Both the position numbers and the translations under genes were made by a program. A stretch of DNA of 64,000 nt from Haloarchaeobius salinus (GTDB lineage: Archaea; Halobacteriota; Halobacteria; Halobacteriales; Natrialbaceae), in the NCBI RefSeq assembly GCF_024464185.1, contig NZ_JANHAU010000005.1, positions 124,001 to 188,000 on the forward strand, read 5' to 3'. The notes beneath the pieces were generated by a model. The model saw nothing but the letters and a program-made list of their open reading frames with translations. It was not told the origin of the DNA and made no database searches. Positions 6,570 to 37,152 of this stretch are shown here, piece by piece (position 1 is the first letter of the stretch; every line of letters starts with the position of its first letter).

Positions 6570-6723
6570 CGATACCAGGGTAGGGCTTCGACGTTCATAT
6601 GGGTTGGTTTCCCGGTGGTGACCCGCTCGAACCTGAACTCGGAGCCCCCCGGAGACGGTCGGGTGGTCAGAGCGCACACGCGGTGCGCTGTTAAGATGCC
6701 TCCCCGTCCATCGTGGGGTATCG

Positions 6724-6990
6724 ATGTCCCAGAGATCGCCACTCTCCGCCTCCGAGTCGGGGGCCGGACTGCTGGATCTGCCGCCGAGTGCGAAGCTGGT
6801 CGCGAAGACGCTCGAATACGAGGGCGACGCCACGCAGTCCCAGCTCGCCGAGTCGACGCTCCTCCCGGTTCGAACCGTCCGGGATGCACTGACGCGCCTT
6901 GAGGCACAGGGCCTCGTCAGCTCCCGTATCTCGTTTCGGGACGCACGGATCCGGGTCTACTCGCTGGATATCGAGCGAGAACGGCACTGA
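6724..6990 (+). CDS. Small winged-helix (MarR/TrmB-like) DNA-binding protein
   Basis: An 88-residue, single-domain regulator. The core reads LPPSAKLVAKTLEYEGDATQ, then a LLPVRTVRDALTRLEAQGLV recognition helix, then a wing SSRISFRDARIRVYSLD. It is clearly paralogous to the protein encoded at 40216-40506: both have the sequence PSxKLVAKxL, the RTVRxALxRLE helix and the SFRDARxRxYxLD wing. A TATA-like GTTAAG element lies about 30 nt upstream. No effector domain is present, so it may work as a simple repressor or chromatin-associated factor. Confidence 0.82.
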   Translation: MSQRSPLSASESGAGLLDLPPSAKLVAKTLEYEGDATQSQLAESTLLPVRTVRDALTRLEAQGLVSSRISFRDARIRVYSLDIERERH

Positions 6991-7076
6991 CCACCTGTCG
7001 GCGTGGGTTCGACCGTGCTGGCAGGTATCGTGGGTACCACCACCACGGTTTTGGAACCGGGGCGCTAGCACCGACC

Positions 7077-7796: not shown

Positions 7797-7828
7797 CAGG
7801 TCGGAGCCGGGTCAGAGCCAGCCCGAAC

Positions 7829-8803
7829 TCACTGGAGGCCCATCGCCTCGATCTGCTCCTGGTACCGGTTCCGGATCGTGACCTCCGTCACCTGCGCCAC
7901 CGCGGCCACCTCGCGCTGGGTCTGCTTCTCGTTGCACAGCAGCGAGGCCGCGTAGATCGCTGCCGCGGCGAACCCCGTCGGCGACTTCCCCGACAGGAGC
8001 CCCTGTTCGGCCGTCACGTCGATTATCTCGTTCGCCTTCATCTCCACCTCCTCGCTCACGCCGAGTTCGGAACAGAACCGGGGGACGTACTCCTTCGGGT
8101 CGACGGGCTCCATCCTGAGGCCGAGCTCCTGCGAGATGTACCGGTACGTGCGCCCGATCTCCTTCTGCTCGACACGCGAGACCTCCGACACCTCCTCGAG
8201 ACTGCGCGGAATCCCCTCCTGTCGGCAGGCGGCGTACAGACAGCTCGTCGCCACGCCCTCGATGGACCGACCACGGATCAGGTCCTCGTTCAGTGCCCGC
8301 CGGTAGATCACCGACGCCACCTCGCGAACGGACCGCGGGACGCCGAGTGCCGATGCCATCCGGTCGGTCTCGCTGAGTGCGAACTGGAGGTTCCGCTCCC
8401 CGGCGTCCTTCGTCCGGATGCGCTCCTGCCACTTCCGGAGGCGCGACATCTGACTGCGCTTCTCCGAGGAGAGCGACCGGCCGTACGCGTCCTTGTTCTG
8501 CCAGTCGATCTGGGTCGTCAACCCCTTGTCGTGCATCGTCTGCGTCGTCGGTGCCCCGACACGACTCTTGCTCTGGCGCTCCCCGTGGTTGAACGCCCGC
8601 CACTCCGGCCCCCGATCGATCATCTCGTCTTCGAGCACCAGTCCGCAGTCGTCGCAGACGAGCTCGTCACCGTCACCGCTCGTGACGAGCTGTTCCGACC
8701 CGCACTCCGGACACGACTCCGTCTCCGATTCTCCAGTGTGCTCTTCCTGTTCCGATTCGGTGACCGCCTCCTCTGTCTCCGCGTGCCGGTTCAGACGAGC
8801 CAT
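7829..8803 (-). CDS. tfb: Transcription initiation factor IIB (TFB)
   Basis: A 324-residue general transcription factor. The N-terminal zinc ribbon has Cys pairs at residues 31/34 (CPEC) and 50/53 (CDDC), followed by the B-reader region ([15 protein letters not shown]) and two cyclin-like repeats. It recruits RNA polymerase to TBP-bound promoters and reads the BRE. Haloarchaea encode several TFB paralogues, so I do not assign a letter. The acidic, glutamate-rich N-terminal leader of about 30 residues precedes the ribbon. A strong TATA box sits about 32 nt upstream of the ATG. Confidence 0.96.
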
Positions 8804-21468: not shown

Positions 21469-23291
21469 CGGTGGACCGACCGCGTGAGTGTGAACACGAA
21501 CAGTGCGACGAAGAACGCCCCGATGAAGCCCTCGAGCGCGGAGAACACCCGGAGGCCGAACGAGTCCACGCCGGGGACCGGTGGGGTGCCGATGATGAAC
21601 GAGATGAAGCTCTGGAAGCTGAAGAGGACGTACTCGCGGAACGGGACACCCGCGCTTCCAGGGGCGAGACCGGCCGCATACAGCACTGCGAACCCGAGGC
21701 ACAGGCCGGCCGACGACAGCACCACCCTGCTCGGGCGCTCGCCGTAGCCGGTCGTCGCGCCCATCGTCAGGTTGGCCACCCACCGCCAGAGGCCGGTCCA
21801 GCCACGACGGCGTGGCAACGCACGGAGGCGCTCGCCGTGGCTCAGCCGTCGATACCCCATCTCCTTGCGGAAGAACTCGCCCGCCGCCCGGGTGTCGCCC
21901 GCCGCGGTCGCCCCGCGCTTGGCGCGGAGGTAGGTGTTCTCGATGCCGGCCATTCCGAGTGCTGCGTCCGTCGTATCGCTCCAGAGCCCGAGCCACCGGC
22001 CGACCGCTGCGCGGAGCCCACCGTCGCGGCCGTAGCCGTGGATCCGCCAGTCGACCGCTTCGAAGGCGTCGCGGTGGCCGGCGACGTCGAAGTCGTCGAA
22101 CTCGGTCCGGAAGAGCCGCAGGTGGTCCAGTCGGGGGCCGGGTTCGTCGCTCCCGACGAGGTCGACGTCGCCGAGCACCCCCTTGGTGAGGTCGGCACGA
22201 CTGTCCGTCAGTCGGAGTTCGCCGCCGTCGAGCCTGCTTCGGGAGAGATCGACCGGCGTGGCCGCTGCGGCCGGTGCGAGCCTGATATCGTCGAACCGGG
22301 CGTCGCGTGCGTGTGCCTCGTCGGCGAAGCTCGTGTCGACGAGCGTCGTGAGTCCACGACCGGCGGCCTCGTCGAGGTTCGCGACCGCGGTGAACTGTGC
22401 GCCGTGGAAGTTCGCGCTCTGCTCGAACTGGGCCTTGGCGAAGGTGGCGTAGCGACGGTCTTTCTCCGCTCCTCCGGGTGAGCCGTCGGCTTCGTCACCG
22501 AACCGGGCGCGTGTGAATCGTGCCTTGCTCTCGAAGCGACTCCGATAGAAGGAGACGTTCCGGCGGAAGCCAGCGCCGACGAACGTGGCCGTCTCACCGA
22601 ACCGCGCGCTGCGAAACGACGCGTCGCCGCGCACGGTCGCGAACCGCATCGAGAACATGCTGTCGGGGATCGTGGTCCCAGAGAGGTCGAGCCCGCCGTG
22701 GACGACCGCGAATCGGAGGTCGATCGGGACCGTCACGGAGGCGGTCAGTTCCCGGTTCGACAGGTCGAGCGTTCCGAAGCGCGCACCGTCGAGCGCCCGG
22801 TCGGCGGGGTCGTCCGATTCGATGGCCGCCACGAGCGCATCCCGGACCCGTTCGTCGTCCTTCTCGTCCGGGGGGAGGTGGAACAGACAGCGGTCGTCAC
22901 GGACCGCCTCGTGCGGGCATGCACTCGCAGGGTCGTCGGTTGCCGCATCGGCCAGCATGTTCACCTCGCGCCACGCGGTCTCGACCTCGTCCCAGGTGAA
23001 CCCGAGCGTCTCGGCGTCGTACCGCTGGCAGAGCGTCCATGCGGGCGTCCATCGGAGTCGTGCGGGCGACTCGTCGAGGCGCTCGCCGAGGCGCTCCAGT
23101 GCGGCCGTCCGGCCGCGGTTGGTCCGGACCTGGTTGACGCCGGATTCGGCGCGAAAGCGCAGGAACATGTGCATCGACCACTCGCGCAGGCTCGCCTCCA
23201 CGCGGGCCTGCCACGCCGGCGAGGCGTAGTACGTGCACTGACTGTCCATGGAGCGTTCACCACCGTTCGGGGCTTCAATCTCCCGGCTCAT
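21465..23291 (-). CDS. Pentapeptide-repeat protein with C-terminal two-TM channel-like domain
   Basis: A 608-residue protein. Residues about 15-130 form a helical N-domain ending in a Cys/His cluster (CPHEAVRDDRCLFH). Residues about 165-370 show pentapeptide-like A(D/N)LxX repeats, such as ASFRSARFGETATFVGAGF and RATFAKAQFEQSANFHGAQF patterns. The C-terminus (about 510-608) has two hydrophobic helices flanking FQSFISFIIGTPPVPG, the position of a channel pore loop, but without the TVGYGD filter. The start is supported by a 4-nt overlap with the upstream glycosyltransferase stop. Confidence 0.8.
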   Translation of the reverse strand: MSREIEAPNGGERSMDSQCTYYASPAWQARVEASLREWSMHMFLRFRAESGVNQVRTNRGRTAALERLGERLDESPARLRWTPAWTLCQRYDAETLGFTWDEVETAWREVNMLADAATDDPASACPHEAVRDDRCLFHLPPDEKDDERVRDALVAAIESDDPADRALDGARFGTLDLSNRELTASVTVPIDLRFAVVHGGLDLSGTTIPDSMFSMRFATVRGDASFRSARFGETATFVGAGFRRNVSFYRSRFESKARFTRARFGDEADGSPGGAEKDRRYATFAKAQFEQSANFHGAQFTAVANLDEAAGRGLTTLVDTSFADEAHARDARFDDIRLAPAAAATPVDLSRSRLDGGELRLTDSRADLTKGVLGDVDLVGSDEPGPRLDHLRLFRTEFDDFDVAGHRDAFEAVDWRIHGYGRDGGLRAAVGRWLGLWSDTTDAALGMAGIENTYLRAKRGATAAGDTRAAGEFFRKEMGYRRLSHGERLRALPRRRGWTGLWRWVANLTMGATTGYGERPSRVVLSSAGLCLGFAVLYAAGLAPGSAGVPFREYVLFSFQSFISFIIGTPPVPGVDSFGLRVFSALEGFIGAFFVALFVFTLTRSVHR

Positions 23292-24352
23292 CGATCCAGG
23301 ACGCGCGAGCGGAGGAACGCCCGCAGCCCGGTGGTCGTCGCGGTGTACGACGGCTGTCGCGCGGCCGTGTCCGCGGCGGCCGTCCCCAGGCGCACGAGCA
23401 GCTCTCGGTCGTCGGCCAGCCGGGCGAGGCGCTCCCGGAGCGTGTCCGGGTCGTCGGGTGAGACGAGATAGCCGTTCTCGCCGTCGACGACGACGTCACC
23501 GGCACCCCCGGCCGCAGACGCGATGACGGGGAGGCCGAACCCCATCGCTTCGAGGTAGACGATGCCGAACCCCTCGTGCCGGGACGGGACCGCCAACAGG
23601 TGTGCGGCTGCCAGTCGGTCGGCCAGGTCGGCGTCCGGGAGGAACCCGGTGAACGTCACTCGGTCGTCGATGCCCGCCGCCGTCACCTGCCGCTGGAGAC
23701 GCTCCGCGTAGTCGGGAGCGGCGTCCAGAGCGCCGACGACCGTCAGCTCACAGTCCGGCACTGCCGCCACCGCGTCGATCAGCCCGTGGACGTTCTTCCG
23801 TGGGACGACGCTCCCGACCGCGACGATCCGAAGCGGCCCGTCGATCGCGCGTCGCTCGATCACCGTCGGGGCAGGAGTGGTCCGGTCGTCGAAGCGGTCG
23901 CCGGCCGGTTGCCCGACGTGCAACGGCCCGTCGTAGCCGTGCGCTCGAACCGTCCTGGCCGTGTCGTGACTGGTCGTCACCACGGCGTCGACGCTGCGGA
24001 GATACGCCCGTTCGACGGCACTGTACCACCGCTGTCGGAGCGGTGACCACCGCTCGCTCGCCCGGAGGTGATGGACGATGGAGACGATGGGCGTCTCGCT
24101 GTCGACCCGTCGATTCCAGCCGACGAGCGTCGGATGTGCGAGTTCGTCCTGCAGCACGACGTCGTACCGCTCGAGGTCGGGCGGCGTCCCCCGGAGGCCG
24201 GCCCACAGGCCGCGATGGTAGTCGTACCACGGGAGCTCGTGGACGGTGACCGTCTCACCGGCCGCCCGCAGCTCCTCGACCAGCCGTCGGTCGTACCTGA
24301 ACCCCCCTGTCGTCGTGTCGAGCTCGCCGTAGAGTACCAGCCCCAGCTGCAT
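23288..24352 (-). CDS. GT4-type glycosyltransferase (GT-B fold)
   Basis: A 354-residue glycosyltransferase of group 1 (GT4). The C-terminal domain has the nucleotide-sugar-binding region (VAVGSVVPRKNVHGLIDAV) and the EX7E motif in SRHEGFGIVYLEAMGFG. There are no membrane helices, so it is cytosolic or peripheral. It is the first gene of a tightly overlapping operon with the pentapeptide/channel protein and the ParB-like protein. The acceptor is unknown. Confidence 0.92.
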   Translation of the reverse strand: MQLGLVLYGELDTTTGGFRYDRRLVEELRAAGETVTVHELPWYDYHRGLWAGLRGTPPDLERYDVVLQDELAHPTLVGWNRRVDSETPIVSIVHHLRASERWSPLRQRWYSAVERAYLRSVDAVVTTSHDTARTVRAHGYDGPLHVGQPAGDRFDDRTTPAPTVIERRAIDGPLRIVAVGSVVPRKNVHGLIDAVAAVPDCELTVVGALDAAPDYAERLQRQVTAAGIDDRVTFTGFLPDADLADRLAAAHLLAVPSRHEGFGIVYLEAMGFGLPVIASAAGGAGDVVVDGENGYLVSPDDPDTLRERLARLADDRELLVRLGTAAADTAARQPSYTATTTGLRAFLRSRVLDR

Positions 24353-24598
24353 TCACCGGGTGTTCGCAGTGCGGGGGTTTGAATGCACGCACGTATCATA
24401 CTCACCCGGTAGTGACCACTCACTGCCGGGCGCACTCGCGGTCGACGCGGACGACCGCACCGTCCCACGTCCTTCGTCGGCATTCACACCACGCAACTCC
24501 CCCGGCAACCGGTGGAACCGTGATTTGGGATCTCACGCTGCTGCGCTGTCGGCTGTTCTGGATTCCGGATCGAGACAGTCACGTCTGATGTCTCGAAT

Positions 24599-26088
24599 TC
24601 AAAGGCCGTCATCGCTCGCTGTCGCCCCGACGCCAGTTTCGTCGAGGTCGACTTCGGGTTCGGTCAGGCCACTCCCGCGCCACGTTCCGCGGCGGTACCA
24701 GACGTACGCGATGGTCGCTCCGACGACGTTCGAGACAGCGAAGGACAGCCAGACGCCCGTTTCACCGAGCGTGCCCGCAGTGACCCACGCGATCGGGAAT
24801 CGGATGACACCGAGCGTCAGCACGGATATCGCGGCCGCAGTGAGCGTCTTCCCGGCACCGCGGAAGCTCCCCGTGTATGCCCGCATGATACCCATGAACC
24901 CGAACGTTAGCGCGACGTAACGGATGAACTCGGCTCCGATGCTGATCACATCGGCAGCGTTCGTCTGGTCGGCACCGACGAACACCGAGACGATGGGCTC
25001 CGGGAACACGAAGGCGACGACGCCACCGACGCTGAGGACACCGAAGAGGACTTTCGCAGCCAGCCCTGCTGCTCGTTCGGCGCGGTCCGGTTTGTCGGCA
25101 CCGATGTTCTGGCCCGTCATCGTTTCGACGCCACGGGCGACGGCGAGTGCGGGGAGGAAGGCGACCGAGAAGACACGGGTCCCGATGCCGTACGCGGCGA
25201 CGACGGTGTCCGGGAACATCGCGACGATGACCAGCAGAAGGTTCATCGACACTGCTCGTCCGGTACCTTCGACGGACGCCGGAAGACCGATGCGAACGAG
25301 TCGGCGGAGATAGGAGAGGTCGGGGACCATGTCGTGGAGGCGGATCTGGACGCCACGGTTCCCACGGAACATGATAGCCAGGCCGACGACCAGTGCTATC
25401 GCGCGCGAGAAGATCGTCGCGATGGCGGCCCCTTGGATGCCGAGTTCGGGGAACGCGACTGTGCCCACGAGGGGTGCGTTCTCGACGACCGTCCAGCCGA
25501 AGATGAGGAACGGGTCGATGATGATGTTGAGAACGACAGAGCCGAACATCACGATCATCGGTGTGATCGTGTCGCCGTACCCGCGCATGAGCGCGACGAA
25601 GACGGCGAAGCCGAACATGAACAGCAGGCCCAGTGAGATGACTTCCATGTAGCTCGTCGCGAGCGGCTGGACGTCCTGAGAGACACCCATCACACCGAGG
25701 AACGTGTCGACGCCGACGTAGCCGATGGCACCGAGGACGACGGAGGCGATGACAGCGAAGGTCACCGTCTGCGAGGCGGCGTACTCGGCCTCGCGTTCCT
25801 CACCCGCACCCGTGAACTGGGCGACGAGGACGCTGCCCGCGACGGAGATCCCCATCCCGAGCGAGATGAGCAGGAAGACCATCGGAACGCGAAGCTAATC
25901 GCAGCCAGGGCGTCCGTGCTGTACTGGCCGAGCCAGAACGTATCAGCCAGGTTGTACGCCGTCTGAAGGAGGTTCGTCACGACGATCGGCATCGAGAGGA
26001 AGAACAGTGGCTTCCCGATGCTGCCCGACGTCAGGTCGAACTCCTCGGGACCCCTGAACAACGCGGAGATGCGGCTTCGCAGCCCCAT
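24599..26088 (-). pseudogene. MATE-family multidrug exporter, frameshifted
   Basis: The N-terminal part (from the ATG at 26088; PLFFLSMPIVVTNLLQTAYN and LADTFWLGQYSTDALAAISF) and the remaining 427 residues (from 25882; MVFLLISLGMGISVAGSV onward) lie in different frames. In the family these join as AISFAFPMVFLL. Here the joint reads TTCCGATG where TTCCCGATG would keep frame, so one C is missing at 25883-25885. The rest is intact, with 12 helices in total. It overlaps the TetR stop by 1 nt, so it was probably the regulated transporter. This may be a real inactivation or a sequencing error. Confidence 0.85.
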
Positions 26089-26705
26089 CAGTGGGCTGCC
26101 TCCGATAGCTCGTCGGCGACTAGATGCTGCTCGGCGTACCGTATCACCGTGGCGTGGAGCTTCTCCGACGGGTAGTCCACGGCAACGCGTCGTGTGTGAG
26201 CCCCCGTGATGGCCGTCACGAGGAACTCGGCGTCGACAGCCGGGTCGACGGTTTCGGCGAAGTCACCGGTCGTCACGCCAGCCGCGAGGATATCCCGTAG
26301 CCGTTCGAACAGCACCACATCGAACTCCGTCAGCCGTGTCTGGATGGCGTCGTCGTACGGCGCTTGCGCCTTCGCCTCCAGTAGTGCAGTGCGGAGTTCC
26401 TGGCCAGGCGGCGCGGCTTCGTTCGTGAGGACGGTCTCGAAGACCGCGAACAGTTGCTCTCGCGGGGTGCCACCGTCGACCGCCGGAAGTCGTGCAGTGT
26501 ACCGTTCGTACAGAAAGTCGAGGAACTCGATGAAGAGGTTCCCCTTGCTGTCGTAGTAGTAGTGGATGGCGGCTTTGCTTCGGTCTGCCTCGTCGGCGAT
26601 ATCTTCCAGGGTGAGGTTCGCGTATCCGTGTCGGCAGAGGGCACGATACGTTGCCTCCAGGATCTCGGTCGCTGTGTCGTCCTCCATTGCGGTTGAGCCT
26701 GTCAT
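26088..26705 (-). CDS. TetR/AcrR-family transcriptional regulator
   Basis: A 205-residue TetR regulator. The N-terminal HTH is EATYRALCRHGYANLTLEDI through ADEADRSKAAIHYYYDSKG, with the TetR consensus recognition helix. It lies immediately upstream of, and overlaps by 1 nt, the MATE exporter, so it most likely represses that operon. A second ATG 6 codons in (MEDDT) could be the start. An inverted repeat 19-36 nt upstream is a candidate autoregulatory site. It is closely similar in its HTH to the TetR gene at 28449-29042. Confidence 0.9.
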   Translation of the reverse strand: MTGSTAMEDDTATEILEATYRALCRHGYANLTLEDIADEADRSKAAIHYYYDSKGNLFIEFLDFLYERYTARLPAVDGGTPREQLFAVFETVLTNEAAPPGQELRTALLEAKAQAPYDDAIQTRLTEFDVVLFERLRDILAAGVTTGDFAETVDPAVDAEFLVTAITGAHTRRVAVDYPSEKLHATVIRYAEQHLVADELSEAAH

Positions 26706-26723
26706 AGAAAAGTCAACGATGTC

Positions 26724-26741
26724 TCACCCAGAACAGGGTGA
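26724..26741. promoter_or_regulatory. Inverted repeat upstream of tetR-MATE
   Basis: TCACCC-AGAACA-GGGTGA lies 19-36 nt upstream of the tetR start and also in the 73-nt gap to the divergent HalOD1 gene. It is a candidate TetR operator. It has not been compared with other sites. Confidence 0.4.
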
Positions 26742-26778
26742 ACAACAAGTGTTTCAGACGTAAGTAGCTAATACTATT

Positions 26779-27015
26779 ATGGATGAAAGGGTTACTCAGC
26801 AAATTATTGAAGCAATAGCTGATGTTGAAGGGGTAGAACCCGAGAACTTGCATAATGTTCTCGAAGACGAGGTTTCTACGGATGCGATAAGAGAATTGGT
26901 CAACCACAGCAGTAATTCGTGGCGACTTCAGTTTGAGACGCGAAATCACATTATACAGGTGATGGGAAACAACACTATTCTCGTTGACGGCAAGCAAAAA
27001 CGAGCGTCCTTCTGA
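26779..27015 (+). CDS. HalOD1-family small protein
   Basis: A 78-residue protein of the haloarchaeal output domain 1 type. It has the layout of the family: helix (VTQQIIEAIADVEGVEPENL), then a short region LHNVLEDEVSTDAIRELV, then two strands (WRLQFETRNHIIQVMGNNT and ILVDGKQ). HalOD1 domains often act as the output part of response regulators and also occur alone. The gene is clearly A/T-rich compared with its neighbours, consistent with acquisition near the insertion sequence. Confidence 0.75.
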   Translation: MDERVTQQIIEAIADVEGVEPENLHNVLEDEVSTDAIRELVNHSSNSWRLQFETRNHIIQVMGNNTILVDGKQKRASF

Positions 27016-27030
27016 ACTCTGTATCCCTCG

Positions 27031-27153
27031 TTACCACGGAACAAGAGAATAATCCGTCAGCCCAGCACCAAGGATCCAATAGATGATTGCACTGAATGCC
27101 ATCAATGCCAACAGGACAATATGGAGGTTTCTCTCTTGGCGAACTCTGTTCAT
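27031..27153 (-). CDS. 40-residue single-helix membrane protein
   Basis: A complete frame from an ATG at 27153 to a TAA at 27031 encodes 40 residues. A basic N-terminus (NRVRQERN) precedes a hydrophobic helix HIVLLALMAFSAIIYWILGA and a short polar tail ending SLVPW. It is convergent with the HalOD1 gene. The charge pattern and helix length look like a real small membrane protein. Its A/T-rich composition matches the HalOD1 gene and suggests a shared origin. Confidence 0.5.
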   Translation of the reverse strand: MNRVRQERNLHIVLLALMAFSAIIYWILGAGLTDYSLVPW

Positions 27154-27222
27154 ACTATACTAAGGGACTGGAGACGGAAATACAGCAGGACTCCCCCAAT
27201 GGAGTGTGTTATACGATTCACC

Positions 27223-28230
27223 TCATAGCGTCAGCTTCTCACGTCCAAGATCATCTCCTCGTTCGAAGTTGGTAATTACAACGACGAGTCGGAGACACAG
27301 CGCAAGGAATACTTCTGTTCGTGCGTGGACGTGGCCTCGGGCGCGGACGTGCCCGAGGCCGCAGTCCTTGACTGCGTCGTTGGTTCGTTCGACTCCTGTC
27401 CGGTTATTGTACGTCTCGTCCAAGATAGATTGTTCCAGCTGAACGTCCTCGCTGTGTTCCTCAATTCGGTCTTCGATCCTGTACTCGATGTCTTTCGGGT
27501 CGTCAGTGTTTCGCGGGTTGTATGTGGCGATTGGCACGACGCCTGCGACCAGCAGGCGGTCGTGCAATTCGAGGATGTCGTAGGCACTGTCTCCAAGCAT
27601 CCAGATGGGTGTATCGACGGCGAGCGCGTCACGCGTGACGCGCATCGCCGTCTCCTGATCCGCTTGCTTGGCCTGTGTGAACTCCGCTGCAATCGGTATC
27701 TTTGCACCGGTCGAGACAATCGTACAGCCGAAGCCGTAGTAGTACTCTTCAGCCGTTGGATCGTAGTTCCATGACGCCGCGTCGTTGTACTGGATCGGCT
27801 CAACGTGTGTCGAATCGATAGAGTACGTCGAGTCGAGCAGGCCGCGGGCGGCGGCCTGCTCGACGAGCCTGTCGAAGACATCGTCGATAACGTGTTCGAG
27901 GTCGGTGAGAAACCGGTCAATCGTGTCTCTGGATGGCGGTTTGTCGAGTCCACAGTAGTACCAAACGAGACCGTTCTGGAGTTCTCGTGCAACCGGACGC
28001 GTTCCGTAGATGTCCTTGTAATAGCAGTGCAGAAAGCCGCAAAAGAGGTCTGGTGGCTGATGGACTCGTGTTCGCCCCCGCCTTGAGGGGGCGAACACGT
28101 CGTACTCCAGCAGAAACTCGAACTCAAGGTGCTCAAACAGCGGTACTGTCTCGGTGGCCGCGACATTCAAGAAGTCGTCTACCGAAGCTACGTCTTGCAG
28201 GGCGTTGGTACTGCTGGACACAGTTTCCAA
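27223..28230 (-). CDS. IS4/IS5-type DDE transposase
   Basis: A 335-residue transposase. The first catalytic Asp is in STYSIDSTHVE (D139), the second in WMLGDSAYDIL (D214), and the Glu is E281 within Y274-N-N-R277-T-G-V-E281, giving the Y(2)R(3)E(6)K signature of the IS4/IS5 superfamily. No internal stop or frameshift is visible, so it could still be active. The likely start codon is TTG at 28230, or a GTG three codons later. A 16-nt palindrome lies 8 nt upstream of the start. Confidence 0.9.
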   Translation of the reverse strand: METVSSSTNALQDVASVDDFLNVAATETVPLFEHLEFEFLLEYDVFAPSRRGRTRVHQPPDLFCGFLHCYYKDIYGTRPVARELQNGLVWYYCGLDKPPSRDTIDRFLTDLEHVIDDVFDRLVEQAAARGLLDSTYSIDSTHVEPIQYNDAASWNYDPTAEEYYYGFGCTIVSTGAKIPIAAEFTQAKQADQETAMRVTRDALAVDTPIWMLGDSAYDILELHDRLLVAGVVPIATYNPRNTDDPKDIEYRIEDRIEEHSEDVQLEQSILDETYNNRTGVERTNDAVKDCGLGHVRARGHVHARTEVFLALCLRLVVVITNFERGDDLGREKLTL

Positions 28231-28238
28231 ACCCTGCG

Positions 28239-28254
28239 GCCTCCCTTGGGAGGC
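28239..28254. repeat. Perfect palindrome inside the IS, upstream of the transposase start
   Basis: GCCTCCC-TT-GGGAGGC lies between the inferred right TIR and the TTG start codon. As RNA it could fold into a hairpin covering the ribosome-binding region and limit transposase translation. Confidence 0.6.
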
Positions 28255-28292
28255 TTTCTATGACACGCTCTTGCGGTTACCATCCTAACTTA

Positions 28293-28308
28293 TTAACTAA
28301 TTAGTCAA
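28293..28308. promoter_or_regulatory. Palindromic A/T-rich site upstream of the second TetR gene
   Basis: TTAACTAATTAGTCAA has a perfect 10-bp core (ACTAATTAGT) and a one-mismatch extension on each side. Its size and symmetry resemble TetR-family operators. It lies between the IS end and the TetR gene at 28449. Confidence 0.4.
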
Positions 28309-28448
28309 AAGGGCTTCGACAACGGTGCATTTCATCTACATCAGCTAACGTACCGTCTGGTGGCAGCTCTGACTAACTGATTGATAACCCAGAGTGTTCG
28401 TCCCGGAGAGCACAATTATTATCCAACGGTGTGTAGAACCGGCACCCA

Positions 28449-29042
28449 ATGGGCGAACCATCGGAGCGTACCTTCACGGACGCCGAACGAGCGATCATGG
28501 AGGCGACCTATCGGGCACTTCGGGAACACGGGTACGCCAACCTCACGATCAAGCGGATCGCAGACGAGTACGGGAAGTCCACGGCCGCAGTGCATTACTA
28601 CTACGAGACCAAGGACGAACTCCTCGCAGCCTTCCTCGACTACCTCCTCGATCGGTTCGCCGACTCGATACACGACATCGAGACGACCGACCCGGAAGAA
28701 CGGCTGGAACTGCTGCTCGACGAGCTCCTCGTCAGACCGCAGGAGAACCCCGACCTCTCCATCGCGCTGCTGGAGATGCGGAGTCAAGCCCCCTACAAGG
28801 AGGCGTTCAGTGAGCGCTTCCAGCAGAACGACGAGTACATCCGATACACACTCAAGGCCGTGATCAATCACGGAATCGACGAGGGCGTGTTCGCCGACGT
28901 CGACGCCGACTACGTCACCCGTTCACTGATGACGATTGCGGACGGGGCCCGGACCCGAGCAGTGGTGTTGGACGATCTCGAAGCCCTCGAGACCGGTCGG
29001 GAGACCGCACGCGAATACGTCGACAGGGCGCTTCGGCAGTAG
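28449..29042 (+). CDS. TetR/AcrR-family transcriptional regulator (second copy)
   Basis: A 197-residue TetR regulator. Its HTH (MEATYRALREHGYANLTIKR, then STAAVHYYYETKDELL) resembles that of the TetR at 26088 in both the first helix and the HYYY turn. No transporter gene adjoins it: the gene on one side is a kinase and the other side is the IS. A TATA-like AATTATTA sits about 33 nt upstream of the ATG. Its original target may have been lost or be elsewhere. Confidence 0.9.
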   Translation: MGEPSERTFTDAERAIMEATYRALREHGYANLTIKRIADEYGKSTAAVHYYYETKDELLAAFLDYLLDRFADSIHDIETTDPEERLELLLDELLVRPQENPDLSIALLEMRSQAPYKEAFSERFQQNDEYIRYTLKAVINHGIDEGVFADVDADYVTRSLMTIADGARTRAVVLDDLEALETGRETAREYVDRALRQ

Positions 29043-29048
29043 GTCAGG

Positions 29049-30839
29049 TCACTCCGGTGGCTCCACCTTCGGCAGTTCGACGACGAACACCGAGCCGGTG
29101 GGCGCACCGTCTTCGACCCAGACCTCACCACCGTAAATGTCGACGAGGGTGTCCACCAGGTAGAGCCCGATCCCCGTCCCGTCGCTGCCCAACCCTTTCT
29201 CTCCTTTCCCGAAAACCGCATCCTTCCGGTCGTCAGGGATTCCCGGCCCGTCGTCCGCGACGTTGACCCTCACGGCCTCCGCTCGCTCCGTGACCGACAC
29301 GTGGACCTCCGGCACGACCTTCGCGTTGTGTTCGACGGCGTTCGCGAGGAGATTCCGGAACACCGACCCGAGGAGGTCGTTGCCCTCAACGGAGACCCGC
29401 GGGACCGACTCCTCCAGCGTGACCTCCGCGTCCGTATACTCCGTCCTGGCGTCCTCGACCGCCCGTTCGAGCGTCCGCTGGAGGTCGACCGGCTCGGTGT
29501 TCTCCTCCGCCGAGAGCATCACCTCGGACATGTTCCGCGCCGTCAGCGTCAGCTCGACCGCGTGGCTCGCGGTCTCCTGAACCGTCCGGAGCAGTTCCAT
29601 CCCCGAGTCGTCGACGTGACTCGCGAGTGACTCCGCGTACGCCGTCACGAGTTGCAGGTCGTTCCGGATGTCGTGGCGGAGTATCTCGTTCAGCATCTCG
29701 AGGTCGTCACGCTGGGCTTCCAGTCGGCGTTCGTACTCCTTTCGCTCCGTGATGTCCTGTGCAACCTTGTGGATGTGGTCCGTCCCGTCGTCGTCCTGAT
29801 AGAGCGACGCCGTCACGGCGACGTCGATGGTCTCACCGTCGACGGTCAGCAGTTGCTCCTCTCGCTTGACCTGGTTGGAGTCCGCGTCGTAGAGTGCGGC
29901 TATGAGATCCTCGCGGTCGCTCGGCTCCGCGTAGAACTCCACGACGCTCCGCCCGGCGAGTTGATCGTCCGACTCCGCTCCCAGCAGCGAGACCAGTCCG
30001 GGATTCAGGTACTCGAACGTCCCTTCCGGGTCAGGGGTCGTTCTGAACACGCCACTCGGGACCGTCTCGAGGAGTTCGGAGGTCAGTCCGAGCTGCTGTT
30101 CGTACCGTTTCTGCTCCGTGATGTCCTGCTGGAAGCCGACGAAGCTCGACACCGTACCGTCGTCCGACCGGACCGGCGCGACCGTGACCCGGTTCCAGAA
30201 CTCGCTGCCGTCCTGCCGGTAGTTCCGCAGCTCGACGGTCACCGGCTCCTCGGCATCGATACCCCTTCGAAGTCGAGCGGCGGGCTCGCGAGCGGTCCCT
30301 TCGCCCTGCAGGAATCGACAGTTCCGGCCAACGACGTCGCTCTCACTGTAGCCGGTGAGCTCCTCGAAGCCCTCGTTGACGTAGACGAGCGGGTTGTCGG
30401 GCTGTCCGGGGTCCGAGAGACTGATACCGATGGGCGCGGTGTCGATCGCCTGGAGCTTCCGGGACATCGCCTCGGTGTCCGTCGTCGCTGTGGTCCTCAC
30501 GACGAAGTAGCGTGGGTCCTCACCGGCGGTAGCCTCGACAGCAGCGACCCGGACCTCGACGGACACCGCACCACCGGCGTCCGTCCGGAGTACCCATCCG
30601 GTCGTCGCTCCCGAGTCAGCAAGCGCCTGGAGCTCGCCGAACAGGCTGGACGACGGGCTGCTCCGCTGTTCGACGATCTCCGCCAGTGCGCGCCCGCGGA
30701 GGGACTGACACTCCGACCCGACGAGATCGGCGAACCGCGAGTTACAGTCCTCCACCCGGCCAGCCTCCCGTCCGAGGACGACGAGACCGTCCGGACTCTG
30801 GTCGATCACCGCCTGGAGGGCAGTCCCGGAGAGGTTCAT
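29049..30839 (-). CDS. PAS-LOV-PAS sensor histidine kinase
   Basis: A 596-residue soluble kinase. PAS-1 spans about 7-115 and PAS-3 about 250-368. The middle domain (about 130-242) is LOV-like: GRNCRFLQG with C174 as the possible flavin-adduct cysteine, N206 in NYRQDG, N216 in FWN, and Q237 in VGFQQD. These are the residues that contact flavin in phototropin LOV domains. The H-box is EILRHDIRND (H389), and HATPase_c has FRNLLANAVEHNA, ADDGPGIPDD and TGIGLYLVDTL. The ATG at 30839 is preferred to one 7 codons upstream. It converges with the TetR gene. Confidence 0.92.
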   Translation of the reverse strand: MNLSGTALQAVIDQSPDGLVVLGREAGRVEDCNSRFADLVGSECQSLRGRALAEIVEQRSSPSSSLFGELQALADSGATTGWVLRTDAGGAVSVEVRVAAVEATAGEDPRYFVVRTTATTDTEAMSRKLQAIDTAPIGISLSDPGQPDNPLVYVNEGFEELTGYSESDVVGRNCRFLQGEGTAREPAARLRRGIDAEEPVTVELRNYRQDGSEFWNRVTVAPVRSDDGTVSSFVGFQQDITEQKRYEQQLGLTSELLETVPSGVFRTTPDPEGTFEYLNPGLVSLLGAESDDQLAGRSVVEFYAEPSDREDLIAALYDADSNQVKREEQLLTVDGETIDVAVTASLYQDDDGTDHIHKVAQDITERKEYERRLEAQRDDLEMLNEILRHDIRNDLQLVTAYAESLASHVDDSGMELLRTVQETASHAVELTLTARNMSEVMLSAEENTEPVDLQRTLERAVEDARTEYTDAEVTLEESVPRVSVEGNDLLGSVFRNLLANAVEHNAKVVPEVHVSVTERAEAVRVNVADDGPGIPDDRKDAVFGKGEKGLGSDGTGIGLYLVDTLVDIYGGEVWVEDGAPTGSVFVVELPKVEPPE

Positions 30840-31225
30840 AATCGAAAGAAGGAGGCGCACCGATTAGCCCTTTGTGGCCACGGGTACCGTGTCGGTCCTG
30901 CTCGGTCAGTTGAAAGAGCTATGCCACTGGTGTGTCCCGTGCATCGACTGGTCCTTTTCCAGGCCACCGCCACCCTCCGCTCGGAGGCTCTGCCGGGCCC
31001 TCGTGAACCGGGAGGAGAAGCTCGTTGACCGCGACCTGCACGTCGAGACCGGCGAATCGGCGATGACCGACGCCCTCGACGAAGTCAACCTCCGAGGGAC
31101 GTCGTCGTCAGCTTCTGTGGCCTGCTACCACCCCCGGTCTCGGGCGAGTCGCGAAGCGAGCACGGGGACGAGAATCAGCTACCGACAGGCTTCGGACGTG
31201 CTGAGTGGAGGAGCCCGAGGTGACG
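30840..31225. other. Intergenic region, no supported gene
   Basis: This stretch separates the LOV kinase start from the stop of the SDR gene. Its upstream part should carry the kinase promoter. I see no coding frame with recognisable features. Confidence 0.4.
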
Positions 31226-31984
31226 CTACTGGACCGAGTAGCCCCCGTCGACGGGGAGTGGCTGCCCGGTCACGTACGACGCGTCCTCGGAGCAGAGCCA
31301 GACGACTGCGGCAGCGATCTCCTCCGGCTGACCCAGTCTGTCTGCGGGGATCGCGGCGACCGTCGCCTCCATCGACTCAGGGTCCTCTTCGCCAGAGCGG
31401 GCGACCATGGGCGTGTCGATGACGCCCGGTAGCACCGCGTTCACCCGGAGGCCGTCGCTGCTGAATTCGACGGCCGCGGTCCTCGTCAGTCCGACGACGC
31501 CGTGCTTGCTTGCGACGTACGGGCTCAGATTGGGGAACCCGAGAATGCCAGCGATCGAGGACGTGTTCACGATGGCCCCGCCACCGCCCTCCAGCATGGC
31601 CGGGATCTCCTCTCGCATCGCGTAGAACACCCCGTTGAGGTTGATATCGAGGACCCGGTTCCAGTTCGCGTCGTCCTGTTCGGCGAAGCCGACCTGGTCG
31701 CCCTCGATACCCGCGTTGTTGAACGCGAAGTCGAGCCCACCGTACGTTTCGACGGCCGTTTCGACCGCGGTGGCGAGGTCGCCTTCGTCCGTGACGTCCG
31801 TCTCCACGAACGTGGCCTCGCCCCCATCGGCCTCGATCCGGGAAACGGTCTCTTCGCCGCCCTCTACGTCTATATCGGCCGCGACGACGCTCGCCCCCTC
31901 TTCCGCGAACCGCTTGGCAGTCGCGCGCCCGATTCCCGAGGCCGCACCGGAGACCAACGCGACTCCGCCGTCGATACCGTTCAT
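31226..31984 (-). CDS. Classical SDR oxidoreductase (glucose-dehydrogenase-like group)
   Basis: A 252-residue SDR with the full set of motifs: SGAASGIGRATAKRF (cofactor binding, residues 12-26), NNAG, the catalytic Ser in IVNTSSIAG, YVASKHGVVGLT with the Tyr-x3-Lys pair, and PGVIDTPM. It therefore should be a functional NAD(P)-dependent alcohol or ketone oxidoreductase. Substrate unknown. It is monocistronic. Confidence 0.93.
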   Translation of the reverse strand: MNGIDGGVALVSGAASGIGRATAKRFAEEGASVVAADIDVEGGEETVSRIEADGGEATFVETDVTDEGDLATAVETAVETYGGLDFAFNNAGIEGDQVGFAEQDDANWNRVLDINLNGVFYAMREEIPAMLEGGGGAIVNTSSIAGILGFPNLSPYVASKHGVVGLTRTAAVEFSSDGLRVNAVLPGVIDTPMVARSGEEDPESMEATVAAIPADRLGQPEEIAAAVVWLCSEDASYVTGQPLPVDGGYSVQ

Positions 31985-32891
31985 ACGAGACCACCCGTCC
32001 CGTCGAGGCTGGGGTCTGCCACCTCACGCCGAGTGAACCCGTACCCCGTCGTCGACGCCATCACGTGCTCACCTCGAACCCGACCACGGCTCTGTTCCCG
32101 ACTGCGACGTCTGTACTCGCCCCTGCCGTGACAATTGGTTGCATCACACAAGCTAGTACGCCTTTCGAGATATTTCTGAGTTCTGTTCGGATATTGAGGT
32201 GTAGAACGTCGCCTCACGGCCACGGACATTGTCGGTTCGTCCAGCACGAGGACCGATACCCGCGACGGCAATGCTTCTCCCCGTAATCACTGCCCCATCG
32301 ACCAGCGTTTCACATCCCCCACTCGTACTCGACCACCCTGATCGCGAACGGGTCGAAACGGTTCTGGATATTTGTAATCTCGAGTATATTTTGGATCCTG
32401 CGCGGGATAGTTCGACTGGGACTTTAACGGATCGAACCCTCCGTATACTAGTCGATAATCCACCGGCGTTTGCCTGGACCACCCTCTCCCTCCTGCGTTT
32501 TTTTGCCTGGTCCATGCATATCTGGTCGAGATTGGCTAGACCGGCTGGCTAGACCACTCTGACGGGAACCACCAGAGCGACAGTCTTGGCCGCCACAGCT
32601 GCCAATCTCGACTCAAGTACTTCTACCAAATACCGAGCTGAGAGGAAAGTGAACCTCCATAGTATCTATCCTGATATTTCCTTCAGTGTGGACAGCTCCC
32701 CAGGTTCTTCAGAGAACGGGACTCCTCGGTGATTGCAGGACCCAACCTCGTTCAGAAACGGGGTATCAGGCCGGGGCGACGCTTGTACGGTTTCGGAAGA
32801 CACGAATTGTTCGTCAGCTCCAGCCCGTAAGTAGTTCGTGTATTAACTCGGGGACAGAGACAGTGCCACGACTGTGAGTTCGGCGGCTGCG
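31985..32891. other. Intergenic region of about 900 nt, A/T-richer than average
   Basis: Open frames on both strands here (up to 120 codons) lack recognised domains and have unusual composition. A short direct repeat GGCTAGACC occurs at 32534-32542 and 32547-32555. I could not identify a gene. Confidence 0.4.
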
Positions 32892-34421
32892 TCAGTCGGC
32901 CTCGGCGCCAGTAACCGCGTACACCGATGGATCTTCGCCCGCACTGTTCGTGGTCCACCTGGAGACGGCGAGGGTCAGGGCCAGCCCCAGGAGCATCCCG
33001 GCGATGGCCGGTGTCCAGCCGAAGTAGTCGGCCGGGAGGGCGACGACCGGACGGCCGAGCAGGAGCTCTGAGAGGTATCGCAGCACCTCGAACGTGCTGA
33101 GGAGGTAGAACAGCTGGGAGCCACCGATACCGGCGGAGATCCCCCACTTCGTCGTCCCGTCCCAGTACAGCGCCACCAGCACGGGGAGCGCGAGCTGTGC
33201 GAAGCCGCTGAACGCGGTGTCGCCGATCTGGACCAGCGTGCCGGGCGCGTAGAGGCTGGCGACGAACGACAGCGACGCGAATATCACGACACCGATCCGT
33301 GCGACCGTCGCCTCGCCACCGAGCGCGTCGTCCACCGCGTCTGCCCGGCCGGTCAGCGGCCGGTAGAGGTCCCTGGTGAGGTATGAGGCCCCGGAGAGCA
33401 GCATCGAGTCACTCGAGGACATCATCGCGGCCATCGCGCCGGCGACGACGACGGCCGTGAACCACGGTGCCGTGTACGCCTCGAGCACGGCCGGGACGAC
33501 GTTCCCCCCCTCGGGCACCTCGACGCCAAGCCCCGCGGCCCACGTCCCGAGCATGAACGCCGGGACGAAAAGCAACACGACGAGCACGGGCCACAGCGAC
33601 AGCGTCCGCTTGAGCACGCGCTTCGACCGCGCGACGAAGAACCGCTGGTTGATCTGGGGGAACATCGTCACGCCGAAGGCGATGCTGATCGCCGTCGAGA
33701 GCATCCACTGGGGCGAGTAGACGCCACCTCCCAGCCGGAGGAACTCCGGGTTCGATGCCGCAACAGCGTCCGTCGCGGCGGTCGCCCCGCCCGCGGCCGA
33801 GAGCACCCAGCCGATGGCCACCCAGACGATGCCCAGCATGAACAGACCCTGGAGCGTGTCGGTCCAGGCGACACCGCGCATTCCCGCGATAGCGACGTAG
33901 AGAATCATGAACAGCGTAATCCCCCCCGCCCCGACCCAGAACGGGACTGCGCCGTCTGTCAGCCCGACGATCGCCTGCCCCGCACCCTTCTGCTGGAGCA
34001 TCACGTACGGGAACAGCCAGAAGATGCTGATGGCGGCGACGGCACCCCGGAGCCAGGTGGAGCCGAACCGGTCGCCGAGCATCTCGCCGAGCGTGACGTA
34101 GCCGTTCTTCCGGCCGACGAGCCACTGCTTGTAGCCCAGTACGTACCAGAGGATGGCGAAGAGGATGCCGTCCATCAGGCCCATCACGAGTATCCACTCC
34201 GGCCCCGCCGAGTACGCGAGGTTCGGGCCCCCGAAGAAGGTGAACGCCGACAGCAGCGTCGCGAACGTCGTGAAGAGCAGGACGACGGTGCCGAAGGTCC
34301 GCGAGGCGAGGTAGTAGTCCTCGGCCGTCCGGTCGGTCAGCCGGTAGGCCAGCAGGCCGACGCCCAGCGCGACCAGTAGGTAGCCGGTGACGATTCCCAG
34401 CTGGAGTGTGGTCTCCGCCAT
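32892..34421 (-). CDS. Sodium:solute symporter (SSS family)
   Basis: A 509-residue membrane protein with about 13 helices. It starts with the SSS arrangement ATGYLLVAL-like GYLLVALGVGLLAYRLTDRT followed by AEDYYLASRTFG, and it contains GVAWTDTLQGLF and MSSSDSMLLSGASY, both characteristic of the family's core (Na+-site helix TM8-9). Substrate unknown. It is preceded, 3 nt away, by a DUF3311 protein, the usual partner of this SSS subgroup. Confidence 0.92.
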   Translation of the reverse strand: MAETTLQLGIVTGYLLVALGVGLLAYRLTDRTAEDYYLASRTFGTVVLLFTTFATLLSAFTFFGGPNLAYSAGPEWILVMGLMDGILFAILWYVLGYKQWLVGRKNGYVTLGEMLGDRFGSTWLRGAVAAISIFWLFPYVMLQQKGAGQAIVGLTDGAVPFWVGAGGITLFMILYVAIAGMRGVAWTDTLQGLFMLGIVWVAIGWVLSAAGGATAATDAVAASNPEFLRLGGGVYSPQWMLSTAISIAFGVTMFPQINQRFFVARSKRVLKRTLSLWPVLVVLLFVPAFMLGTWAAGLGVEVPEGGNVVPAVLEAYTAPWFTAVVVAGAMAAMMSSSDSMLLSGASYLTRDLYRPLTGRADAVDDALGGEATVARIGVVIFASLSFVASLYAPGTLVQIGDTAFSGFAQLALPVLVALYWDGTTKWGISAGIGGSQLFYLLSTFEVLRYLSELLLGRPVVALPADYFGWTPAIAGMLLGLALTLAVSRWTTNSAGEDPSVYAVTGAEAD

Positions 34422-34424
34422 GGG

Positions 34425-34640
34425 TCACACCTCCTCGATCCCGACGCCCCACGCCCGACGAACGAACACCCGGAAGGCGACCGAGGCCAGCAGCATCCAG
34501 CCGATGTGCCACCAGAGCCACACCGGGAGCCCCGCGACGACCGTCCCGTCCCGCCAGAGGAACCACGGGATCGCCAGCGCCGAGAGCAGCACGGCGACCA
34601 CAGCCCAGACCCATCCGCCTCGTGTTGCGCGTGCCGACAT
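34425..34640 (-). CDS. DUF3311-type small membrane protein, SSS partner
   Basis: A 71-residue protein with two hydrophobic helices (about 9-28 and 39-61), including the VWLWWHIGWMLLASVAF segment that resembles DUF3311. It lies 3 nt upstream of the SSS symporter gene. Such pairs are recurrent in bacteria and archaea and the small protein is presumed to be a subunit or assembly factor. The ATG at 34640 follows a clear TATA box. Confidence 0.75.
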   Translation of the reverse strand: MSARATRGGWVWAVVAVLLSALAIPWFLWRDGTVVAGLPVWLWWHIGWMLLASVAFRVFVRRAWGVGIEEV

Positions 34641-34670
34641 CAGTGAATGTGGAGTTCCCAGTCGCTGTTC

Positions 34671-34678
34671 AGATAAAC
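34671..34678 (-). promoter_or_regulatory. TATA box of the DUF3311-SSS operon
   Basis: GTTTATCT on the minus strand, about 32 nt before the ATG at 34640, as expected for a leaderless haloarchaeal transcript. Confidence 0.55.
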
Positions 34679-35193
34679 GTTCCTGCTGCGGCCCGTTGCG
34701 TGGCGGGCGACCGCGTCGTCCTGGGTCGGGCCTTATTCCACGACGACCATGCAGAGGGTATCGGCGACCACAGAGTAGGCGATGTCGTACGGGCCACTCC
34801 ATCCGAGATGGGTTTCGAGGCTCGCTGGACACTATCCCTATATAACTAGACTATTATTGAAATCGGAGGATTGTTCCAATCTGGGCTGCGGTGGTAGTTC
34901 CACCCAGCAGCGCGCACAGTTCGCAGTCGAATCTGGAATACACCGAATACCAAAGTATACTATCGTTTTACTGTTGTCTCCCCGCCTGAGAAGGACAGAA
35001 AAGGGAGGGTTCGAATGCCATATCACGAACCCAGTCCAACTGGTGAGCAGGAGAGACAGCCAGATAACATTTATATGAATATTTGTATATCTTCGATACT
35101 CTCAGTTAGATGTTGTTACAGAAGCGGGTTTGTACTCGGTCGAACCGGCTCGGACCGAACCACCGACGGGACGAGGGCGGACACCCTGTCGAC
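34679..35193. other. Intergenic A/T-rich stretch, no supported gene
   Basis: The region from about 34835 to 35110 is strongly A/T-rich for this genome and contains several TATA-like runs (TATATAAC, ATTTATATG). It carries no frame I can support. Confidence 0.4.
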
Positions 35194-37152
35194 TCAGATT
35201 TCCGTGATGGTCCGCTTGTCGACGTCTACCGCGTCCGCGTCCTCCGGGAGCAGTGCGACGACGAGGAACTCCGGATACTCGGCGAAGTACGCCACGAGCT
35301 TCGCGATGCGGTCCGAGTCGATGGCCTCCAGCGAGTCCAGCAGCATCACGGGGACCGACTCGTAGAGTTCGTGGACGAGATACCCCGCGAGGGCGACGAC
35401 GAGACCGACGACCTCGCGCTCGCTCTCGCTGAGGGTCTCGACGGTGCCCTCGTACGCACCCCCCGACTCGGACTCCCGGACGATGTGGAGCTCGAACACC
35501 GTCTCCTCGACCTTCCTGCGGCCCTGTTCCGTCTCCCGCTCCTTGCGTTCGATCCAGATGCGGGCGATGTTCTCGTACCCGAGGATGTCGAGTATCTCCG
35601 CCATGTGGTCGTTGAACTCCTCGACGGCGTTCTCCTCGAGGCGGTCGATCCGGTTCCTGAGCTCGTCCAGCTCCTCGACCAGCTGGTCCCGGCGGGCCTC
35701 CAGCTCCGCTCTGTCGTCGAGGAGCGATTCGAGCTCCTCGATCTCGGACTCGGCGGTGGCGAGCTCGTCCTCCTTCTGGTCGAGTTCCAGCTCCACCCTG
35801 TTCGCCTCCCTGTGGAGTGCCAGTATCTCGTCGTAGTCGGACGACTGCTCCTCCTCGACTGCCGCCTCGAGCGCTTCGATCTCCTCGTGTAGCGTCTCCC
35901 GCGTCTCCTCGAGTTCCTCGATGCGGGCGCGTTTCGCGTCGAGCTGGACGTCGATTTCGGCCAGCCGGTCCTCGAGTGACTCCCGTTCGTCTTCTGACGC
36001 CTCGGCCTCGGCGATCCGCTCGGTCGTCTCGTCGATGCGGTCCCGGATGGACTCCCGTTCGGCCAGCTTCTCCTGTCGGAACGAGCGGAGTCGGTCGAGC
36101 GTCTCCTCGATGTCCTCGCGGGCGACGCGGGAGCCACAGGTCCAGCAGGTCACGGAGCTCTCGTCCTCGAGCAGCTGGTCCGTGACCGGTCCGTCCCGCT
36201 CGTCGTGGTCGTCATCGGCGAGCACGGCCGCGATTTCGTTGTCAGTCCCCGTCAGCATCTCCTCGTTGAACTGCACGACGCTCTGGAGTTCGTTCATCTG
36301 CGCGGTCACCGTACGCTGGCGCTCCCGAAGGTCCGCGAGGTCGCTCCGGAGGGCATCGAGGTCCGTACCGGGTCGGTCGGCCAACACTGCTCGACGGTCC
36401 TGTTTCTCCTCGCGCTCCGACTCCAGCGAGGCGATTGTCTCACGGAGCGTCTCGAGCTGGAATCGGATGTCCTCCAGTTGCGAGCGGTGCTCCTTCAGCT
36501 CCGACAGCCGCTCCTCGATGGCCGCCGTGGATTCCCGCCCCGCCGACAGGTCGCCGTCCGCCCGGTCGATCTCGGCAGCCAGTTCGTCGAGCCGTTCGCG
36601 TCGCTCCCCGATGGCCGACTCGAGCTCCCGTTTGCGGCGTTCGAGCTCCACCAGCTCGGGCTCCCGCTCCGCTATCGACGAGAGCCGGTCGTCGATGTCC
36701 CGCTTCTCGGCCTGGCGGAGCTCGATCTCCGCCTCGATCTCGGCAGTGTCGATCGGACGGGTGAGGAGTTCGTGGAGGTTCTCCCCGCGAGCGACCGCCC
36801 GGCGAGCCTCGTTCTCCTCGAGGAGGAACGCGAACAGGTCGGCGGTCTCGGGGTCGTCCAGATAGCCGGACCCGGTCGCGGTGACGGTCCCGTTTCGGCG
36901 TTCGAACCGGCGCTCGACCACGGTATCCCCGAGCGAGAGCTCCACACGACCCTCCGCCGCATCTCCCTTGAGCGTGTACTGGTCGCTCCCCATCGCCGCC
37001 ATCAACGCCTGCAGGAAGGAGGTCCGGTTCGTCGCGTTCCGTCCCTCCAGCACGGAGACGCCCTCCGAGAGCGTCACCGACGTCCGCGAGATACCGCCGA
37101 CGTTCTCCACCTGAAGAGAGAGTTCCCCGCGCAGGGATTCAGCCTTCGACAT
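35194..37152 (-). CDS. Archaea-specific SMC-related protein (Sph3-like)
   Basis: A 652-residue coiled-coil ATPase-like protein with an N-terminal SMC head (about 1-130), two long glutamate/arginine-rich coiled coils, and a CWTCG hook at about residues 334-338. The Walker A is degenerate: GRNATNRTS at 37-45 has Arg where the invariant Lys should be and lacks the central glycines. The C-terminal head has TLSESEREVV (signature-like) and VPVMLLDSLEAID (Walker B-like). It adjoins an RdfA gene, the same order as sph3 and rdfA in Haloferax, where both affect rod formation. Confidence 0.85.
   Translation of the reverse strand: MSKAESLRGELSLQVENVGGISRTSVTLSEGVSVLEGRNATNRTSFLQALMAAMGSDQYTLKGDAAEGRVELSLGDTVVERRFERRNGTVTATGSGYLDDPETADLFAFLLEENEARRAVARGENLHELLTRPIDTAEIEAEIELRQAEKRDIDDRLSSIAEREPELVELERRKRELESAIGERRERLDELAAEIDRADGDLSAGRESTAAIEERLSELKEHRSQLEDIRFQLETLRETIASLESEREEKQDRRAVLADRPGTDLDALRSDLADLRERQRTVTAQMNELQSVVQFNEEMLTGTDNEIAAVLADDDHDERDGPVTDQLLEDESSVTCWTCGSRVAREDIEETLDRLRSFRQEKLAERESIRDRIDETTERIAEAEASEDERESLEDRLAEIDVQLDAKRARIEELEETRETLHEEIEALEAAVEEEQSSDYDEILALHREANRVELELDQKEDELATAESEIEELESLLDDRAELEARRDQLVEELDELRNRIDRLEENAVEEFNDHMAEILDILGYENIARIWIERKERETEQGRRKVEETVFELHIVRESESGGAYEGTVETLSESEREVVGLVVALAGYLVHELYESVPVMLLDSLEAIDSDRIAKLVAYFAEYPEFLVVALLPEDADAVDVDKRTITEI

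Follow-up and report, generated by a model that had tools for sequence, protein, structure and literature searches.

A PAS-LOV-PAS histidine kinase of Haloarchaeobius salinus with a predicted blue-light sensor domain

The gene, its domains and the kinase core

The gene lies on the minus strand at 29049..30839 of the window, that is, of the whole 64,000-nucleotide stretch of DNA analysed, which comes from the salt-loving archaeon Haloarchaeobius salinus. Its limits were taken from the list of open reading frames and by direct reading, and its domains from Pfam; it runs from an ATG start to a TGA stop and encodes a PAS-LOV-PAS-histidine kinase of 596 aa. An alternative GTG start at 30860, seven codons upstream of the ATG, would yield a protein of 603 aa. 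The 596-aa form is the likelier of the two, because the closest relative found has its start at the position matching the ATG (MTLSAAAY versus MNLSGTAL).

Three PAS domains and a HATPase_c domain were detected by Pfam above the respective cut-offs, and a HisKA match below its own. The protein is acidic (114 D+E against 52 K+R), and a strongly hydrophobic segment was not found along its length, the highest 19-residue stretch averaging 1.12 on the Kyte-Doolittle scale. All features of the protein are given on the minus strand. The N-terminal domain, PAS1 (30483..30827; Pfam PAS_8; elements 5-118 of the model), and PAS3, located between the LOV domain and the kinase (29751..30104; Pfam, alignment and model), are both without LOV residues.

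The kinase core begins with a helical linker and the DHp helices (aa 364-442; 29514..29750), which were delimited on the full-length model (block pLDDT about 59-83) and by a weak HisKA match (E 0.0065; 16.9 bits against a cut-off of 26.9); a homologue, L036, reaches 27.1 bits with the same model. His389 in the motif LRHDIRND (29673..29675) was assigned as the predicted phospho-acceptor by alignment and direct reading. The HATPase_c catalytic domain with its N, G1 and G2 boxes (29067..29378) matches PF02518 with an E value of 2.9e-20 and 73.2 bits, against a cut-off of 26.4. The kinase core is judged to be real from this HATPase_c score and from His389 in RHDIRND, which is invariant in the 11 proteins of alignment A1 (this kinase and its ten homologues with the best E values, L030-L039).

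The full-length model (pLDDT 79.0, pTM 0.35) has low global confidence and is partly reliable. In it an unbroken helix, residues 364-406, runs from PAS3 into the DHp region and carries His389; it was modelled with modest confidence (block pLDDT about 59-83). In all 13 proteins measured (the 11 aligned ones plus L004 and L005) the His follows the D of the last DI/VT motif at a distance of 27 residues; these include the paralogue L004, in which it is the LOV domain that precedes the kinase. Linker length has been described for YF1 as a rule for signal polarity (PMC6798134). A light-on or light-off assignment on that basis was considered and dropped, since the register of one DHp family is not transferable to another.

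Flavin-site residues, profile ranking and fold of the LOV domain

The LOV domain with its flanking helices (aa 124-255 of 596; 30075..30470) was delimited with the NCBIfam model YtvA_fam, LOV matches in the PDB, a structural model, Foldseek and VIA-align. It was aligned to the LOV stretch of YtvA taken from the PDB sequence matches, and compared with a list of the YtvA residues taken as flavin contacts, among them N37, N61, R63, Q66 and R79. Cys174 in GRNCRFLQG (30318..30320) is the predicted flavin-adduct cysteine. Asn206 (30222..30224), Asn216 (30192..30194) and Gln237 (30129..30131) were identified by alignment and direct reading as the equivalents of YtvA N94, N104 and Q123, the last being the signal-relay glutamine. 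In the initial annotation these four residues had been named as the light-adduct and flavin-binding set of the middle PAS domain, and all four are exactly right in the 596-aa numbering. The alignment with known LOV domains that it had proposed added N149, N173, R175, Q178 and R191, the equivalents of YtvA N37, N61, R63, Q66 and R79. By the same alignment R175 and R191 are the phosphate-side arginine pair, N206 and N216 are ring-binding and Q237 is the signalling residue.

At the remaining positions of the list the kinase has Ser142 for T30 (30414..30416; alignment and direct reading), Ala for V75, Ile for L82, Leu for I92 and Val for both L106 and I108, all of them exchanges between small or hydrophobic residues. 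N149, N173, C174, R175, Q178, R191, N206, N216, Q237 and H389 are invariant in A1. PAS1 and PAS3, which served as an internal control on the same chain, show no equivalents of YtvA C62, R63, Q66, N94, N104 and Q123.

In the profile search the domain was not placed outside LOV, and LOV models and LOV sequences of the PDB ranked first. The best curated NCBI model was YtvA_fam (aa 137-262 in the 603-aa numbering; E 1.4e-46, 159.1 bits), followed by other LOV proteins and scoring above the generic sensory_box PAS model. The whole-protein cut-offs of YtvA_fam (NF052652; 250 bits against the 159.1 bits of the LOV part) and of NF052306, the model for blue-light-activated histidine kinases (450 bits against 143.3), were not reached, as expected, because the architecture differs. 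The best PDB sequence matches of the stretch were the LOV domains of YtvA and YF1 and those of other LOV proteins.

A structural model of the LOV stretch, derived from an alignment of 15 LOV-like domains of which one (L005) is degenerate, reached a pLDDT of 91.6 and a pTM of 0.83. Its top structural match was the LOV domain of Meiothermus ruber (Foldseek E 1.5e-14; VIA-align Z 21.2, rmsd 1.2 over 132 residues); Brucella LOV-PAS structures (6ph3, 6pps and 6ph4) and YF1 were also among the top matches. The PAS domain of the EAG1 channel, which is not known to be a flavin photosensor, aligned with a Z of 17.7 (VIA-align), so the fold supports a LOV assignment and is not proof by itself. Judged by its sequence, the middle PAS is a canonical LOV domain.

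Homologues, distribution and gene neighbourhood

Matches to the kinase at E 1e-90 or better were obtained in 25 of 391 sampled genomes of the class, its own included. The ten homologues in A1 all have the LOV motif. The lower-scoring loci L040-L053 and L057 matched through their PAS and kinase parts, and a pattern search found no LOV motif in them, some being cut by the end of the locus. The invariance seen in A1 thus speaks for the LOV-bearing group only, and light sensing is not what defines the wider kinase family. The homologues L036-L039 (718-743 aa) appear to contain an extra PAS domain between LOV and kinase, PAS3 being matched twice; Pfam, run on L036, found four PAS stretches. Their DI/VT motifs are spaced by 121-123 residues in L036-L038, and one motif was undetected in L039.

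The best relative in the class sample (54% identity) belongs to another family of the order, and the other five genomes of the genus gave, at E 1e-60, no match to sensor plus kinase above 37% identity, one genome being without any match; the gene is therefore patchy. A full-protein scan of named genomes returned five relatives, none of which entered the alignments: two were haloarchaeal (Halobellus clavatus, 51%, kinase part only; Halonotius terrestris, 34%, aa 15-600) and three bacterial (kinase part). The kinase also matched 53 plasmid records, each at less than 60% identity.

LOV-like domains as such are widespread: they were found in 132 of 145 sampled genomes of the class, the own genome included, with the LOV-stretch profile at E 1e-30 or better. 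This profile contains one degenerate row and so counts LOV-like, not intact, domains. Of the 52 LOV-like domains that were aligned, 30 came from loci at the head of the class list and 22 from the genus list, the five of the own genome included. The adduct cysteine occurs in 46 of them, in a sample that leans towards Cys, the profile having been built mostly from intact domains; the counts were the same when the best-scoring domain per locus was used. An earlier count of intact motifs by pattern on 30 loci (21 NC, 1 NT and 8 missed) was replaced by the profile alignment, which covers 52 of 52. Two single LOV-like domains have another residue in place of the cysteine and are otherwise near-complete in LOV residues, with Met in L112 (NMRLLQG; G001:C1:1629658-1630041) and Thr in L090 (NTRFLQG; G107:C5:58045-58431).

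The gene neighbourhood was searched as a clue to the partner of the kinase. The eight flanking genes (23288-37152) encode a glycosyltransferase, a MATE transporter, two TetR regulators, a DDE transposase, a short-chain dehydrogenase (SDR), a sodium:solute symporter and an AAA_23 ATPase, and none of the eight matched a response-regulator model. When the eight genes and the kinase were compared by tblastn with 13-14 kb around each of ten homologues, no conserved neighbour was found; at E 1e-8 the matches were kinase to kinase plus one generic SDR match at 31%. Relatives of the TetR genes are present in each of the five further genomes from the genus (up to 68%, in G004) and relatives of the SDR gene in two of the five (59-60%, in G003 and G004), in each case at different places in the genome. 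With no response-regulator match nearby and no conserved neighbour, the context names no pathway or partner and was rejected as a clue.

The two TetR-type regulators (26088-26705 and 28449-29042) flank the DDE transposase (27223-28230) and share 40% identity along part of their length; the second faces the kinase gene, and the ends of these two genes are 6 bases apart. A second histidine kinase is encoded in the window on the plus strand (13640-15337), with an N-terminal HisKA_7TM and a PAS match.

Predicted light signalling in the kinase and its host

The domain order, the complete flavin-site signature, the kinase signatures, the conservation, the predicted LOV fold, the lack of a strongly hydrophobic segment and the fixed spacing from the D of the DIT motif to the His were computed directly. 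The 29049-30839 product is, with a probability of about 0.84, a soluble haloarchaeal PAS-LOV-PAS histidine kinase with flavin-based regulation by blue light through a Cys174 adduct. The kinase very probably senses blue light through its flavin and signals to the kinase core, and the blue-light-regulated two-component sensor proposed in the initial annotation is well supported at the level of sequence, by the LOV-first profile ranking, the invariant flavin contacts and the precedent of ALovD-1 (described below).

For flavin binding, the photocycle, the signal path, phosphotransfer and the existence of a partner, we infer what follows by homology and from what is established about LOV photochemistry. 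By homology, the LOV domain would bind a flavin, probably FMN. Blue light would then drive the formation of a covalent adduct between Cys174 and C4a of the flavin, as in established LOV photochemistry, and the adduct would re-orient Gln237 on the central sheet. The resulting strain may travel along the helix at the C-terminal end of the LOV domain, then through PAS3 and the signalling helix of fixed length to the DHp helix that bears His389, where the change would alter how autophosphorylation is balanced against phosphatase activity. A response regulator, probably encoded at another place in the genome, would then receive the phosphate.

Flavoprotein PAS domains such as that of NifL are redox sensors, and a NifL model also matches the LOV stretch (E 1.4e-32). 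The LOV domain might thus be photoactive in vitro, but in the cell its flavin would report redox or oxygen, the kinase being a redox or energy sensor on which light acts only as a disturbance; other inputs could come from the PAS domains on either side. We consider this unlikely: the adduct cysteine has no obvious purely redox role, and nothing would then prevent its drift, yet all 11 aligned proteins have it and, in a sample leaning towards Cys, so do 46 of the 52 LOV-like domains. Even less probable, at long odds, is that ligands of PAS1 or PAS3 mainly control the kinase and that the LOV domain survives as a relic with a structural or dimerisation role. The serial arrangement of three sensor domains, in which PAS3 separates LOV from the kinase, would allow for this, as would the extra PAS domain at that place in L036-L039 (Pfam on L036 only); against it, the flavin site of the LOV domain is invariant in the 11 proteins, and PAS1 is invariant only at D17 and N33. 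That an ordinary PAS domain resembles LOV by chance can practically be dismissed, since the fold is indeed shared with a non-LOV PAS domain (EAG1, Z 17.7) but the signature contacts are complete, LOV-specific models rank first and the sister domains PAS1 and PAS3 show what a non-LOV PAS looks like.

Several known systems come close to this kinase. The LOV domain has the same flavin contacts as those of YtvA of Bacillus and of the LOV-FixL chimera YF1. YtvA is not known to have a kinase; in the engineered YF1 the LOV domain adjoins the kinase, and in the present protein the two are separated by a PAS domain. The order of LOV, PAS and kinase is that of the Brucella LOV-HK (LOV-PAS-HK), which is not known to have an N-terminal PAS domain.

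A close likeness is to ALovD-1, the middle one of three PAS domains of a Halonotius histidine kinase, which was reported in 2025 to bind FMN and to have a slow 446/390 nm photocycle (PMC12202551). ALovD-1 shares with the present domain the haloarchaeal origin, the middle place among the three PAS domains of a histidine kinase, a GxNCRFLQ-type motif and a Ser near the flavin methyls. The related full-length protein WP_120100563 has 726 aa, against 596 aa here, and ALovD-1 has a Tyr in the LOV motif where the kinase has Phe176, a comparison made from the published description (PMC12202551). The double UVA peak of ALovD-1 is attributed there to its Ser14 (PMC12202551), and by analogy Ser142 suggests that a split UVA band may occur in the present domain. 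Halobacterial LOV kinases were catalogued in 2014, with 167 archaeal LOV proteins in 82-85 species; the kinases of Halobacteria described there combine LOV with RR, GAF and PAS modules (PMC4844311). The search pattern of that paper matches this kinase, and no difference in kind from the catalogued kinases was seen. Being of the same kind as the ALovD-1 kinase and the catalogued ones, the kinase represents nothing new in kind. Well formed but ordinary, it belongs to a family that had been described before in haloarchaea, and by itself it alters no established view. To the little-tested haloarchaeal LOV kinases it adds a clean example in which the flavin site is complete and a PAS domain would act as relay from sensor to kinase.

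The genome of H. salinus, which is 99.98% complete, holds five strong LOV-like domains, four of them intact in the Cys, both Asn residues and the Gln, the fifth degenerate, and one photolyase-family match. Bac_rhodopsin gave no match in this genome, with relatives searched as positive controls, and neither did heliorhodopsin; Bac_rhodopsin was found in 41 of 59 sampled genomes of the class and in four of the six of the genus, and heliorhodopsin in two of the six. In a host that shows no rhodopsin gene the usual rhodopsin background would be absent, so light responses could be assigned to LOV or to the photolyase/cryptochrome-family protein. It is conceivable, and we offer it tentatively as rather less than an even chance, that this kinase, L002, the Bat-type LOV-HTH protein L003 and the LOV kinase L004 make up a rhodopsin-free, flavin-based light-sensing network. 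The kinase would be a recent addition to it, because the other five genomes of the genus gave no match of comparable extent and identity.

The Bat-type gene (REC-LOV-GAF-BAT-HTH_10) at locus L122 (G000:C1:274000-289000; gene 6141-8120, gap to 5919) keeps the LOV cysteine. Its protein is intact, about 90% identical to the copies in genomes G002, G003 and G004 and 72% to that in G001. A rhodopsin gene and a lycopene-cyclase-like gene (a weak match, 28.8 bits against a Pfam cut-off of 27, for the G001 copy only) adjoin the LOV-HTH gene in G001, G002 and G004. Neither was found by tblastn at E 1e-15 in the 15-kb LOV-HTH stretch of the own genome or of G003, and in these two the LOV-HTH gene adjoins a malate/lactate dehydrogenase gene. 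With no adjacent rhodopsin, the LOV-HTH regulator, if still acting, must have other targets.

In the LOV paralogue L005/L121 (G000:C9:34821-35210), a REC-PAS-LOV-PAS-HK protein (Pfam, L005 only), the adduct Cys is replaced by Trp and the signalling Gln by His. Both replacements are found again, together and in frames of similar length, in three further genomes of the genus (L113, L116 and L120). By this recurrence the L005-type paralogues look like a maintained Cys-less class and not like random loss.
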